Positions 14,026 to 35,248 of a stretch of DNA of 35,248 nucleotides are shown piece after piece. Made by a program: the position numbers and the translations under genes. The notes below the pieces were generated by a model, which was not told the DNA's origin, searched no databases, and was given only the letters and a program-made list of their open reading frames with translations. The stretch's first letter is position 1. The number at the start of each line of letters is the position of its first letter. Origin of the DNA: an uncultured Mycoplasmatota bacterium (GTDB taxonomy: Bacteria > Bacillota_I > Bacilli_A > RF39 > UBA660). The DNA is taken from positions 1-35,248 of the forward strand of contig CAOJYR010000015.1 of NCBI GenBank assembly GCA_948465965.1. The letters are read 5' to 3'.

Positions 14026-15927
14026 TTAAACACCTTGTATATTAACATTAGCAGTAGAATTAACACCTAATATAAATTCTTTAGCAACTTCATCTTTTAC
14101 TATAATATCCATTGGTGAATAAGCTGAATAAAACATATTAGTAGTTGTAGTAACATTCGAAAAAGTCATATTTGCTATATTCAAATTCGTTAATTTAGAA
14201 CATCCATAAAACATCCACATCATATTGGTTACTTTCGATGTATCAAAACTACTTATATTAAGTTTTTCAAGAGCCATATAAACCTCTGCCCCAGTTTCCC
14301 TTGATGCAAACATATAAGACATATCTGTCACATTTGATGTATTAAAATGTCCCAAATCCAATTCTGTCAAACTTCTACAAGCAAGAAACATTCTTGACAT
14401 ATTTACTACATTAGTAGTATCTAAAGGTGTTAAATCTAGATGAGTTAAGCTAAGCCCAGAAAACATGCCTGACATATTTGTAACATTACTAGTATTTAAA
14501 GGTGTTAAATCCAAACTAGTTAAACCAATAAGCCCAGAAAACATACCTGACATATTTGTAACACCACTAGTATCAAAGGATGTTAAATCCAAACTAGTTA
14601 AACTACTATAATTTTTAAACATACTAGACATATTCTTAACTTTTGAGGTATTAAAATGTTTTAGGTCTAAAGTTGCTAATTTCTTATTTCCATAAAACAT
14701 TCCAGACATATCAACAACATTTGATGTATCAAAACTGCTTATATTAAGTTTTTCAAGTACCATACTAGCTTCCGCTGCAGTATCTCTTGAGGCAAACATA
14801 TAAGACATATTTGTAACATTTGAAGTATTAAAATTAGATAAATCCAGTTCAGATAAACTTCTACATCCGCAAAACATTCTTGACATATTTACTACATTAT
14901 TCGTAACAAGATTACTTATATTTAAATTCATTAATTTATTACAATTATAAAATAGATAAGACATATCCGTCACATTAGTTGTATCTAAAGGCGTTGCATC
15001 TAGACTAGTTAAATTAGAAAGTCCGGAAAACATACTAGACATATTTGTAACACCACTAGTATCAAAAGATGTTAAATCCAAACTAGTTAAACTACTATAA
15101 TTTTTAAACATACTAGACATATTCTTAACTTTTGAGGTATTAAAATGTTTTAGGTCTAAAGTTGCTAATTTCTTATTTCCATAAAACATTCCAGACATAT
15201 CAACAACATTTGATGTATCAAAACTGCTTATATTAAGTTTTTCAAGTACCATACTAGCTTCCGCTGCAGTATCTCTTGAGGCAAACATATAAGACATATT
15301 TGTAACATTTGAAGTATTAAAATTAGATAAATCCAGTTCAGATAAACTTCTACATCCGCAAAACATTCTTGACATATTTACCACATTATTTGTACTAAAC
15401 TTATTCATATCTAGATTTAATAATTTATAATTATTATAAAACATATAAGACATGTTTATTACACCTGAAGTATCAAAAAAATCTCCAAACTCTATAAATT
15501 GTAAATTAGTAAAACCATAAAAAGCATAAGAAGAATTGGGATTCGCTTTTACTCCGCCTCTTCCTATTATATATAATTCATATAAGTCATCACTATCCTC
15601 ATCCAATATATAGGCAACAACTGATGTATCCTTGGCAGCTGAGGCATCCCAGGAATCAACTACATTGTCTGGTACTACACTACTATCCTTAAATTCTATA
15701 CTTTCTATTTTATTTCTAGCTAAAGTTTTATTAAAAATCGTTGTGGTATTGCGTCCATTTGTTGCAAGGATTGGTTCTTTATACCCTACTACTTTCACTC
15801 TTCCACGTAATTCTAAAGAGGAAGTTAAGAAACTATAACCAATTGACATAAATAAAAGTATAACAAAAACAGATACATATAATATCTTTTTCTGGCTATT
15901 TTGATAATTTAAATGTAATCTTCTCAT
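14026..15927 (-). CDS. DUF285 repeat surface protein
   Basis: A 633-residue exported protein. A basic N-terminus leads into a hydrophobic segment at about 13-37, then a short domain of about 100 residues. From about 130 to the end runs a chain of DUF285 (BspA-like) repeats of about 24 residues with the pattern 'L..LDLS.FNTSNVTNMSYMF'. Two blocks of about 119 residues in the middle are nearly identical, reflecting the DNA duplication described separately. No LPXTG or SLH anchor is visible, so the N-terminal segment may tether it. AGGAA lies nine bases before the ATG. Proteins of this kind are common surface antigens or adhesins in gut Firmicutes and mycoplasmas; the target here is unknown. Confidence 0.9.
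   Translation of the reverse strand: MRRLHLNYQNSQKKILYVSVFVILLFMSIGYSFLTSSLELRGRVKVVGYKEPILATNGRNTTTIFNKTLARNKIESIEFKDSSVVPDNVVDSWDASAAKDTSVVAYILDEDSDDLYELYIIGRGGVKANPNSSYAFYGFTNLQFIEFGDFFDTSGVINMSYMFYNNYKLLNLDMNKFSTNNVVNMSRMFCGCRSLSELDLSNFNTSNVTNMSYMFASRDTAAEASMVLEKLNISSFDTSNVVDMSGMFYGNKKLATLDLKHFNTSKVKNMSSMFKNYSSLTSLDLTSFDTSGVTNMSSMFSGLSNLTSLDATPLDTTNVTDMSYLFYNCNKLMNLNISNLVTNNVVNMSRMFCGCRSLSELDLSNFNTSNVTNMSYMFASRDTAAEASMVLEKLNISSFDTSNVVDMSGMFYGNKKLATLDLKHFNTSKVKNMSSMFKNYSSLTSLDLTSFDTSGVTNMSGMFSGLIGLTSLDLTPLNTSNVTNMSGMFSGLSLTHLDLTPLDTTNVVNMSRMFLACRSLTELDLGHFNTSNVTDMSYMFASRETGAEVYMALEKLNISSFDTSKVTNMMWMFYGCSKLTNLNIANMTFSNVTTTTNMFYSAYSPMDIIVKDEVAKEFILGVNSTANVNIQGV
14549..14905. repeat. Near-identical internal duplication, copy A
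   Basis: 357 bases match 15038-15394 at an offset of 489 with three mismatches by my reading (14578, 14893, 14902). The offset is a multiple of three, so the frame is kept. The copies lie inside the DUF285 gene. Confidence 0.95.
15038..15394. repeat. Near-identical internal duplication, copy B
   Basis: Partner of 14549-14905. The unit pitch of 489 bases equals 163 codons, so each full period adds several DUF285 repeats to the protein. Confidence 0.95.
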
Positions 15928-31411: not shown

Positions 31412-31439
31412 AAAAAAAGTAACTAATAATTACTTTTTT
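31412..31439 (+). terminator. Bidirectional terminator between the femX pair and the flippase gene
   Basis: AAAAAAGTAA pairs with TTACTTTTTT around a seven-base loop with A and T runs on both sides, so it serves converging transcripts. Confidence 0.8.
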
Positions 31440-33073
31440 CTTTTTATATAATTTCCAATTCTTTTACCAAAAATATTTTGAATTGTCCTACTCTTATAAG
31501 TATAAATAAAGTATACGAAAGCCCCAATAATAAAATAAATAAAAATAATAAATAGATTAACAAGACGCACTTCAGAATAAATTGGTATTGCAAATTTAAC
31601 GAAATATAAGACTATAACCATTAAAACTGAAGCACACAAAATATCAAAAAAATTCTTAATTACATTTTCATAATTAACACCATACTTTTTATGTAAAACA
31701 ACTAAACAAATAATAAGAGAAACAAAATATCCAATAATCGTTGCAGTAATAGTTCCATAATATGAAGGAAGACCTAATTTATAAAAAGCACTAATTAGAT
31801 TAGTATTAAATAATATCTTTAATAATACCCCTGATAACAGACTAACAATAAGAGCTTTATAATCCTTAAAAACCTGAACTACAGAAATCATAGCAGTAAA
31901 AAGAGCAGTAAATAATCCAACAAAGATTGAATAAGATAAAACATTAGCACCATAAACACTAGAACCATAGAATAAATTCCAAATAGGTCTAGCTAAAAAA
32001 CTAATACCAATACACATAGGCAATGTTAAAAATAAAATAACATTTAAAGTCTGATTAACTTTTTTATTAATATCCTTTTTGTCACCCTTTACATAACTTG
32101 TAGTCAAATTAGGAATTAAGCTAACAATAACACCTGTAGAAACAGCCAAAATAATCATATTAAATTTAGCACCCCAGGTAGAAAGCATACTCATTACAAT
32201 TTCTGCATTTTCAACAGAGAAATCAGCATAATTAACTAATCCTTTAACCACTGTCACCATATCAACACAACTATATATAGATTTAAAAATATCAATCATT
32301 ATAAATGGCACTGCATAAAATATAATTTTTTTTAAAATTTGTTTATCCGTAACAATAGGTTCATTAACTGGTCGAATTTTTTCATTAAATTTGCCCCTAT
32401 TTTTAAATCTCTTCTCAACCAAATATAGATAAGAAACAATCGCTCCAGCAGTAGCACCAAAAACAGCTACTCCAACTGCACTAGTAAGAGGTAATTTAAA
32501 CACCTTTAATGTCAAATAACTTCCCAAAACAATAACAAAAACTCTAACTAGCTGTTCTATAACTTGTGAAATAGAAGGAGGCGTCATAAATCGATGACCA
32601 TCAAAATAACCTCTATAAATACTTAAAACAGGTACAATTAATATAGCTGTAGAAATAACACGAATAACAAAGCTTACATCCTCTATTGTATTCCCTCCAG
32701 TTAAATCTCCTAGTATTAGTTTAGCTATTATAGGTGCAAATAACATAAGTATTAAAAAACAAATAAAACCTAAAAACAAGGCCAGTTTCTTACCAATAAT
32801 AAAAGCACGTTTTTTTGCATTGTAATATCCTAGTGTTTGATATTCACTAACAATATTACTAATAGCTAAAGGAATACCTGCAGAAGATAAAGATATAAAA
32901 AATAAATAAATCGTATAAGCATATCCATATAAAGCTCCACCTGAATCTCCAATAACCGCATGAAAAGGAATAACATATAATATACCCAAAATCTTCGTGA
33001 TAACAACTCCAAGAGTCGCAATAAATGCCCCCTTTAAAAATCCACTCTTCTTCATAGATTCGTCTTTCCTCAT
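31430..33073 (-). CDS. MOP-superfamily lipid flippase (SpoVB/MurJ type)
   Basis: A 547-residue polytopic protein with about 14 hydrophobic segments and the N-terminal pattern GAFIATLGVVITKILGILY of the polysaccharide transporter (SpoVB/MurJ-like) branch. Family members flip lipid-linked precursors such as lipid II; SpoVB acts on the spore cortex pathway and YtgP-type MurJ on vegetative wall synthesis. AGGAG lies eight bases before the ATG at 33073. A Lys-rich C-terminus follows the last helix. Convergent with the femX pair, it adds a second wall-precursor gene to this area. SpoVB and MurJ cannot be separated with certainty by eye; a tree would be needed. Confidence 0.9.
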   Translation of the reverse strand: MRKDESMKKSGFLKGAFIATLGVVITKILGILYVIPFHAVIGDSGGALYGYAYTIYLFFISLSSAGIPLAISNIVSEYQTLGYYNAKKRAFIIGKKLALFLGFICFLILMLFAPIIAKLILGDLTGGNTIEDVSFVIRVISTAILIVPVLSIYRGYFDGHRFMTPPSISQVIEQLVRVFVIVLGSYLTLKVFKLPLTSAVGVAVFGATAGAIVSYLYLVEKRFKNRGKFNEKIRPVNEPIVTDKQILKKIIFYAVPFIMIDIFKSIYSCVDMVTVVKGLVNYADFSVENAEIVMSMLSTWGAKFNMIILAVSTGVIVSLIPNLTTSYVKGDKKDINKKVNQTLNVILFLTLPMCIGISFLARPIWNLFYGSSVYGANVLSYSIFVGLFTALFTAMISVVQVFKDYKALIVSLLSGVLLKILFNTNLISAFYKLGLPSYYGTITATIIGYFVSLIICLVVLHKKYGVNYENVIKNFFDILCASVLMVIVLYFVKFAIPIYSEVRLVNLFIIFIYFIIGAFVYFIYTYKSRTIQNIFGKRIGNYIKRKK

Positions 33074-33160: not shown

Positions 33161-33331
33161 TTACGTGTATACAATCATAGCAGAAAAACAAAATACTTGT
33201 TCTTCACTAAATATACTTACACTTACCTGATACTTAATATCAATAACCTCTCCAGTCATCTCAGATAAAAACTCATTAACTTCATCTTCTAAATCCTTTT
33301 CATCCTCAAAGTCAAAAATTTTAACTTTCAT
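33161..33331 (-). CDS. Cse60-like sporulation protein
   Basis: A 56-residue protein matching the small sporulation protein Cse60, which in Bacillus subtilis is made under sigma-E; its role is unknown. Shared features are the N-terminal KVKIFDFEDEKDLEDEVNEF helix, a central DIKYQVSVS strand and a CFSAMIVY C-terminus. The start at 33331 is chosen because GGTGA lies four bases upstream; the 12 extra codons of the longer frame carry no ribosome binding site. It stands between the Fic gene and the flippase with its own terminator. I assign the family from memory of its length and pattern. Confidence 0.7.
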   Translation of the reverse strand: MKVKIFDFEDEKDLEDEVNEFLSEMTGEVIDIKYQVSVSIFSEEQVFCFSAMIVYT

Positions 33332-33403
33332 AATATCACCAAAATAAGTATAAAATTTTTTATCCACAAAAATTGTTGAAATTTATATTTTAAATTATTC
33401 TAC

Positions 33404-34315
33404 TTAAGAATTTAAAGCATCTTTAACTTTTACCTTTCCTTGCACCTTTTTCTTATATACTATATCTGCATTCTTAACTCTGTCATTAATATCAAGCTCA
33501 ATAATAGAATCACATACTTTATAACGATAAAAAGCCTTAATATCCGAATAATTCCCTTCATTATTTGCCAAATTCATAGCCTTATGATAATCAGTGCGTT
33601 CATTCGCCTTTATATAAATAGGTGGCAATCCAGCATCTTCTAATAACTTATTAATGAATCCCCTAATTGTGCGACCATTTCCATCTCCAAAAGGATGTAC
33701 TTTAATTAGTTTACATTTAAGTTCTACACACCTATCCAAATAATATAATAACATATCAACATCCCCAGAACCTTTTACAGTAGATGCACATTTTCTTAAA
33801 GATTGTACCTCTTTATCCAATTCATTAAGTTTAGGGCGAATCATGGACCATTCAGATAATTCTGTCCCTGTACCAGGAAGATAAACATCCCAATTTCTAA
33901 AATCACCAGCACATTCAGAATAATCTGCATAAGAGAATAACTGTTTATGTAAATCCTTCAGTGTATATACATCAAACATATACTCAATATCCTCAGAGTG
34001 AATATATTCATACATTCTTTGAAAGCCTTTAATTTCTATTTGCCCATGGATATCTTGATCATTAACACCTTCTAATTTACTTTCATTTAAAACGTATCTA
34101 GAAACAAAAGCCTTTTTCATCTCATCGAAAACAATCTCGCTAGGATTTAATTCATAATACATTTTAATTAATTTTGTAGGAATTGAAGCATCAGCACTAT
34201 AAAGTTTATGATTATTCTTACGATATTTATAACCCAGAAATGCTTCTTGAATCATAAAAGCCAAATCAATACCATAATTATCTAATTGTTCTAATAATTT
34301 TTCTTTTTCACTCAT
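33404..34315 (-). CDS. Fic-domain protein (AMPylator-type)
   Basis: Fic enzymes transfer AMP or related groups to hydroxyl side chains of target proteins. The 303-residue product carries the full catalytic motif HPFGDGNGRTIR at 207-218, matching HxFx(D/E)GNGRxxR, so it should be active. A motif ESKLEG at 78-83 aligns with the N-terminal inhibitory (S/T)xxxE(G/N) helix of class II Fic proteins, with Glu in place of the first Ser/Thr. The core is flanked by helical regions; no DNA-binding domain is seen. GGGGG lies about seven bases before the ATG. It follows the repeat-containing protein by 48 bases and should share its promoter. The target is unknown. Confidence 0.92.
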   Translation of the reverse strand: MSEKEKLLEQLDNYGIDLAFMIQEAFLGYKYRKNNHKLYSADASIPTKLIKMYYELNPSEIVFDEMKKAFVSRYVLNESKLEGVNDQDIHGQIEIKGFQRMYEYIHSEDIEYMFDVYTLKDLHKQLFSYADYSECAGDFRNWDVYLPGTGTELSEWSMIRPKLNELDKEVQSLRKCASTVKGSGDVDMLLYYLDRCVELKCKLIKVHPFGDGNGRTIRGFINKLLEDAGLPPIYIKANERTDYHKAMNLANNEGNYSDIKAFYRYKVCDSIIELDINDRVKNADIVYKKKVQGKVKVKDALNS

Positions 34316-34363: not shown

Positions 34364-35119
34364 CTAAAAAAGTTTTTGTTTATACTTCCTTTTTTGATAA
34401 GTTGAACCAGCATTTCCTCCAGTAGTATAATTCACTTTTATCTGTGATAAGAAATTATATAATTCAGTAATTTCTTTTACACTATATTTCCTCTTTTCCG
34501 GTAATATCTCTTCTTTTTTATAAGGAGAATATCCACATAATTCTTCTTCTAATATTTTTGACCCACTAATAGCATCATAATATCCATATACACGTGCCAT
34601 TCCATAAGAATCCCTAATATATTCATCCTTATCTTTCATTACTAAAAAATAAAATTTTTGAGTTTTTGGATTAGCCATTACCTCTAACTCTTCATAACTA
34701 AATTCTGTTTGTTCTGTTATTTCAATAAATGGAGCAATTCTATTTAATACTCTCGCATCCTCTTCCGTTATTTGAATAGATTCAGAAATTTCACTCGATG
34801 AGGTGGTATTATTTTTGCCTTTTGGAAAAGTAAAATTTACTTTAGCATTATTCATTTCATGATATATTTTACTAAGTTCTTTTCTTGTATACTGTTTACC
34901 TTCTTCTAATATTTTTGACTTATCTAATTGCTTATAACCCCTTAACTCATAAGAGCTAACCTCTTGTCCATTTATCAAATCCTCATACTTTCTTTCTCTA
35001 CGATAATAATCGGCTCCAAGTGACTTTAAAAAATAAAATTGACCTGTCTCCTCATTATATCCAATCTCTATATCTTGGTAACCTACTGGTCCCAATTCCT
35101 CTATCACAATCCTCTTCAT
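34364..35119 (-). CDS. Unknown protein with two homologous halves, upstream of fic
   Basis: A 251-residue cytoplasmic protein of no family I know. It contains two related units of about 75 residues. The first (from residue 22) reads NEETGQFYFL and ends KELSKIYHEMNNAKVNFT; the second (from about 150) reads NPKTQKFYFL and ends KEITELYNFLSQIKVNYT. The last 53 residues of each align without gaps and share an SSYELRGY / EEELCGY core. A Ser/Thr-rich linker joins them, and the tail is basic. GGGGG lies nine bases before the ATG. It is first in a two-gene unit with fic, behind a consensus promoter. It may be a partner, regulator or target of the Fic enzyme; this is inference. Confidence 0.75.
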   Translation of the reverse strand: MKRIVIEELGPVGYQDIEIGYNEETGQFYFLKSLGADYYRRERKYEDLINGQEVSSYELRGYKQLDKSKILEEGKQYTRKELSKIYHEMNNAKVNFTFPKGKNNTTSSSEISESIQITEEDARVLNRIAPFIEITEQTEFSYEELEVMANPKTQKFYFLVMKDKDEYIRDSYGMARVYGYYDAISGSKILEEELCGYSPYKKEEILPEKRKYSVKEITELYNFLSQIKVNYTTGGNAGSTYQKRKYKQKLF

Positions 35120-35147
35120 TTTATATATCCCCCTTCATTTGCAGTGT

Positions 35148-35176
35148 ATTATACCAAAAATCACCTCTTATGTCAA
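35148..35176 (-). promoter_or_regulatory. Consensus sigma-A promoter of the repeat protein-fic unit
   Basis: On the minus strand a perfect TTGACA (35171-35176) lies 17 bases before a perfect TATAAT (35148-35153). The start codon is 28 bases downstream of the -10. It is the strongest promoter match I found in the window. Confidence 0.9.
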
Positions 35177-35192
35177 TACTTATTATTTTTAT

Positions 35193-35244
35193 CTGTAATC
35201 ATTTTGTGATAATGTCATGTTATATCATTTTTTGAAAATGTCAG
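35193..35244. repeat. Two tandem 26-bp repeats upstream of the fic-unit promoter
   Basis: ATCATTTTGTGATAATGTCA (from 35198) and ATCATTTTTTGAAAATGTCA (from 35224) repeat with a 26-base pitch. Each holds a TCA-N5-TGA inverted element and the invariant AATGTCA. They lie upstream of the -35 box and may continue beyond the window edge. Position and spacing suggest binding sites for a regulator, unproven. Confidence 0.6.
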
Positions 35245-35248
35245 TAAA

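Follow-up and report, generated by a model that had tools for sequence, protein, structure and literature searches.

An IS1202-family insertion sequence (IS) very probably targets sigma70-type promoters at a fixed offset, judging from the sequences that flank its ends. The site that brings this out lies at the end of a 35,248-nt stretch of DNA (the window), where the IS adjoins the promoter of X, a gene for an orphan protein located upstream of the Fic-domain gene fic. Our account of the locus has two parts, that X is a lineage-restricted gene in an old block of genes and that the promoter of X was the target of the IS, and we consider the two together likely. The features involved are listed in Table 1.

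Table 1. Features at the right-hand end of the window (all on the minus strand)
Feature	Position	Strand	Basis
Promoter-side terminal end of the IS1202-family element, 55 bases	35194..35248	-	
17-bp target-site duplication GATAAAAATAATAAGTA, ending exactly at the -35 box	35177..35193	-	
Consensus sigma70/sigmaA promoter TTGACA-17-TATAAT, before X	35148..35176	-	
Ribosome-binding site (RBS) of X, AAGGGGG	35129..35135	-	sequence
X, 251-aa orphan protein, two homologous units and a Ser/Thr/Asn-rich linker	34364..35119	-	
X repeat unit 1, residues 4-97	34829..35110	-	self-alignment
X repeat unit 2, residues 132-232	34424..34726	-	self-alignment; structure model
Fic-domain protein, 303 aa, downstream of X	33404..34315	-	Pfam Fic match
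Inhibitory-helix-like motif ESKLEG, before the Fic core	34067..34084	-	Glu kept in orthologues
Fic active-site motif HPFGDGNGRTIR	33662..33697	-	
Cse60-like small protein, conserved block	33161..33367	-	
MurJ/SpoVB-like flippase, conserved block	31430..33073	-	name from sequence reading

The contig extends 129 bp upstream from the start codon of X and ends inside the IS. The second copy of the duplication GATAAAAATAATAAGTA is at the leuS-side end of another contig of the host assembly, C38, where leuS ends 141 bp from the left end. Since C38 and the window end have in common this 17-bp sequence, which one following base extends to 18 bp, and inverted GACATTTTC repeats, we place the IS between leuS and X, which were about 145 bp apart before the insertion. 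The body of the element at this site is missing from the host assembly (G000), and its identity there is read from its ends. Ten contig ends in this assembly are breaks at the IS (the window end and ends of C1, C5, C10, C13, C19, C36, C38, C44 and C45), and they pair into five copies with perfect duplications of 16, 17, 17, 17 and 18 bp.

A related full element in G262 measures 1579 bp, with both ends present and no matching duplication, and its transposase is of the ISNCY/IS1202 type (NF033594, E = 5e-104, 348 bits against a cut-off of 250). An intact copy of 1566 bp in G045 (G045:C68:1172-2737) has a perfect 16-bp duplication followed by TTGACT-16-TATAAT. The elements end in TGT...ACA with imperfect terminal inverted repeats near 25 bp, 18 of the first 25 bases matching, and carry further GAAAATGTCAG copies inside. 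Set beside the 16-28 bp that defines long target-site duplications (TSDs), the host copies have 16-18 bp and their relatives 16-18 and 27-30 bp. Two other identities were discarded: IS21, as an IstB search gave no match at the element and the full G262 copy has an ISNCY/IS1202 transposase, and the ISAjo2 group, which makes duplications of 3-5 bp by dif/pdif, against 16-18 bp here.

At the five host copies, the promoter-side duplication abuts TTGACA, TTGAAA or TTGATT, with TATAAT 16-17 bases further on. The same arrangement recurs across the bacterial family of the host, where 20 of 25 end-flanks have a promoter matching at least 10 of the 12 consensus bases with its -35 box at 15-18 bp; all other offsets together hold two. 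Opposite-strand promoters of this quality number zero in the 25 flanks, and 14 far-end flanks have no promoter at the 15-18 bp offset. With elements from other families included, 27 of 39 sites reach at least 10 of 12, compared with 0.74% of random positions, though the sites are not fully independent because a single bacterial family contributes many of them and two other chromosomes several each. Six of the 39 are poorer than 9 of 12, and L102, L113, L114 and L143 are among those that do not fit. Orientation is fixed, with the 5' end of the transposase gene toward the promoter, and the core promoter is left intact. At 33 of 37 sites an open reading frame (ORF) lies behind the promoter, and housekeeping genes are frequent among these ORFs; as named by sequence reading, the genes include hisS, thrS, gltX, hrcA, lon, rpsO and infC.

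Insertions inside genes are usually harmful, and such ORFs would also be found if the IS inserted nearly anywhere and selection left only the copies just upstream of promoters. This is very improbable, since selection cannot set the -35 box at 15-18 bp, the length of the duplication itself, with promoters almost absent from adjacent offsets and from the other orientation. A copy on a Paenibacillus cellulosilyticus plasmid also argues against it: this copy lies inside an apparent ORF for another transposase, and yet its 18-bp duplication abuts an antisense promoter, TTGACC-17-TATAAT.

Targeting at a fixed offset extends to distant elements, whose duplications of 16-18 or 27-30 bp also end at the -35 box, the longer class exceeding the shorter by about one helical turn. 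Both lengths occur in G676, where copies of one element have duplications of 16, 27, 27 and 28 bp. On a Spiroplasma citri plasmid, TTGTAA-15-TATAAT follows 18 bp. For two Enterococcus plasmids, where no duplication turned up, the offset was judged by eye: it is 27 before TTTCTT-16-TATAAT in E. casseliflavus and 28 before TTTACT-17-TAAAAT on the E. faecium cfr(D) plasmid. On the Enterococcus plasmids L158 and L159, an IS1202-type element precedes cfr(D), a resistance gene, at the promoter-targeting spacing.

In the mechanism that we propose, the transposase would select a sigma70-type promoter and join the element in such a way that the promoter-side duplication, 16-18 bp long or in relatives about 27-30 bp, stops at the -35 hexamer. 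An element placed in this way leaves the core promoter intact and would sit safely by expressed, often essential genes. Because sites with a poor -35 box have a perfect -10 hexamer, the transposase may read the promoter as a whole, most simply through the bound RNA polymerase holoenzyme, and recognition through the polymerase is the reading towards which we lean, by a modest degree. A transposase that reads the -35 DNA itself, binding the target as a pseudo-end without RNA polymerase, is a possible but somewhat doubtful alternative. It would fit the far ends of the elements, whose final bases are TTGACA in every group examined, but it accounts poorly for a -10 hexamer as well conserved as the -35, and for the pairing of poor -35 boxes (TTGATT, TTTTCA, TTTAAA, TTGTTT and TTTCTT) with a perfect TATAAT. 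Holoenzyme recognition leads to a broader proposal, that the long-duplication half of the IS1202 family are promoter hunters, in which a single transposase would recognise the holoenzyme on a sigma70-type promoter and insert just upstream of the -35 box. Its strand-transfer sites would be separated by 16-18 bp, or by one more helical turn (about 27-28 bp), and we give this proposal, taken as a whole, slightly more credence than doubt.

The promoter of X matches the consensus at 12 of 12 positions with a 17-base spacer, in keeping with the very strong promoter of the original prediction; no other perfect one occurs in the window, where chance would give 0.16. X starts at an ATG with a good RBS upstream. 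Its two-fold repeat was confirmed by aligning residues 4-97 with residues 132-232, which gave a score of 148 against a mean of 35.6 and a maximum of 72 in 2000 shuffles; the units have 34 identical columns (34-35% identity), and the C-terminal half of each is ungapped, as had been described. Structure prediction from the two-unit alignment gives a beta meander and then a helix (mean pLDDT 71); as a single sequence in AlphaFold, X gave an uninformative model (pLDDT 34.5).

X had been assigned to no recognised family, and this still holds. It has no significant match in Pfam, NCBIfam, PHROGs, PADLOC or PDB sequences, and the unit model matched no fold in PDB or BFVD at an E of 0.001 or better. 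No relative was found in phages, plasmids and viral contigs or by a species-wide peptide scan, nor by profile and protein searches in 98 relatives and in 386 family, 385 order and 392 phylum genomes (overlapping sets); peptide scans detect close relatives only, and distant homologues may exist beyond the sampled genomes. Weak matches to polyphosphate kinase, to GalE and others, and to glycyl-tRNA synthetase and an IS30 transposase were rejected as unrelated proteins. A match of whole X to phrog_27114 (E = 0.0018) was lost when the units were searched singly, and these single-unit searches likewise gave no profile match to a known unrelated family.

The conserved chromosomal block is leuS-fic-cse60-flippase, and X lies between leuS and fic only in the host genome. 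In G016, G136 and G322, fic comes straight after leuS, with the flippase downstream, and in G285 a PHP-family gene occupies the leuS-fic gap. The gap in G002, a genome of the same genus, holds an unrelated 875-aa protein (L048:6848-9475, plus strand) with no significant Pfam or PADLOC match and only a weak match to FlbD. We also observed that the host leucyl-tRNA synthetase (946 aa; L076:142-2982, minus strand, contig C38) has a NUDIX domain at the editing domain (Pfam E = 4.5e-13), an insertion missing from the 805-aa enzyme of G002; a search for publications on such an insertion in leucyl-tRNA synthetase found none. Further along the window, 14026-15927 (minus strand) encodes a large protein of surface type whose long internal repeats are nearly identical, in units of the TSNVTNMSYMF type.

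X is best read as a lineage-restricted gene without detectable relatives that settled in an accessory slot of this old block. Its presence only in the host genome, among those searched, and the adjoining mobile element would also suit recently acquired cargo, a phage or defence gene. We hold such an origin to be unlikely: searches of phages, plasmids, viral contigs and PADLOC gave no match to X, its GC of 29.1% and GC3 of 19.0% equal those of adjoining fic, and X is not carried by the IS, which sits outside the X promoter.

The gene downstream does encode a Fic protein whose catalytic motif is intact, as predicted, with a Pfam match above the cut-off (PF02661) and the active-site motif HPFx[D/E]GNGRxxR. 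The segment NESKLEG precedes the core, and its Glu is conserved in orthologues. Self-inhibited Fic enzymes have an inhibitory helix, of which NESKLEG is reminiscent; measured against [S/T]xxxE[G/N], the motif before the core in class II enzymes (inhibitory helix N-terminal in the same chain), ESKLEG has the Glu-Gly but a Glu instead of Ser/Thr at the first position. Cotranscription of X and fic, earlier put forward without qualification, is better described as likely: the two genes are on the same strand, we found no terminator-like site in the 48 bp between them, and fic is probably read through from the X promoter.

The proposal that X is a partner of Fic found no support across genomes. Of 291 family genomes, 105 contain a Fic match at E up to 1e-5, and X is absent from all of the best 29 Fic loci besides its own (a few of them cut upstream by a contig end), including loci with the leuS-fic-flippase order; a Fic 61% identical, in Bacillota SIG201 (a named metagenome-assembled genome), stands in another gene context. 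A dedicated partner made from the same transcript, whether inhibitor, adaptor or AMPylation target, would agree with the adjacency, common strand, short gap and shared strong promoter, with the richness of X in Tyr, Ser and Thr, and with the different orphan gene in the same slot of G002. Such a role is nonetheless quite improbable in view of the 29 loci and of a slot that elsewhere holds a PHP-family gene or nothing. The FicT/FicA and VbhT/VbhA pairs resemble the X locus in having a gene directly upstream of fic, but their antitoxins carry [S/T]xxxE[G/N], whereas X is 251 aa long, duplicated and without this motif, and the Fic here has its own Glu-Gly segment. We thus think it quite likely that X is not a dedicated Fic partner; a partnership private to the host species would be compatible with the loci sampled. 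The position, promoter and repeats of X are observed; as to function, we infer that X most likely acts in the cytosol as a small binding or adaptor protein with two domains, and that its place next to fic is incidental.

The promoter rule offers an answer to a published question, namely what the long-TSD IS1202 elements target. The literature searched (subscription papers outside its coverage) contained no report of promoter targeting by IS1202-family elements. Siguier and colleagues reportedly made a similar division of the family in 2023, in which only one subgroup was shown to target XerCD sites. If true, the rule would supply a bacterial counterpart of transposons that settle by transcription complexes, precise to the base pair and, it seems, independent of accessory targeting proteins. 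The way in which these elements can multiply in small genomes by essential genes would then be explained as well, uncultured bacteria would gain natural markers of their strong promoters, and a tool for promoter-directed insertion would suggest itself. An ISNCY-type transposase is also found at the very end of Vibrio phage-like elements of 9-13 kb (PQ189352.1, PQ189311.1 and relatives), where it is perhaps the integration enzyme.

Targeting of a safe site beside a DNA-bound host machine would be shared with the Tn5053-type res-site hunters and with Ty1/Ty3, which insert upstream of Pol III genes. Their enzymes and targets differ from those described here, and we saw no accessory targeting proteins for the IS. 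Closer at hand is the long-TSD group itself (IS1202, ISTde1, ISHahy13 and ISSeq2; ISNCY in ISfinder), which has, as here, one DDE transposase of about 430-470 aa in an element of 1.4-1.6 kb, TGT...ACA ends and duplications of 16-18 or 27-30 bp (PMC10132070). A study of 2023 reported no targets for that group (PMC10132070), whereas the elements described here appear to have one, the sigma70 promoter at a fixed offset. The dif hunters of the ISAjo2/ISAba32 group, also in the IS1202 family, are similar in their fixed orientation and in having exactly one copy of the duplication between element and target (PMC10132070), but their duplication is 5 bp and their target the XerC side of dif/pdif, as opposed to 16-30 bp and a promoter here.
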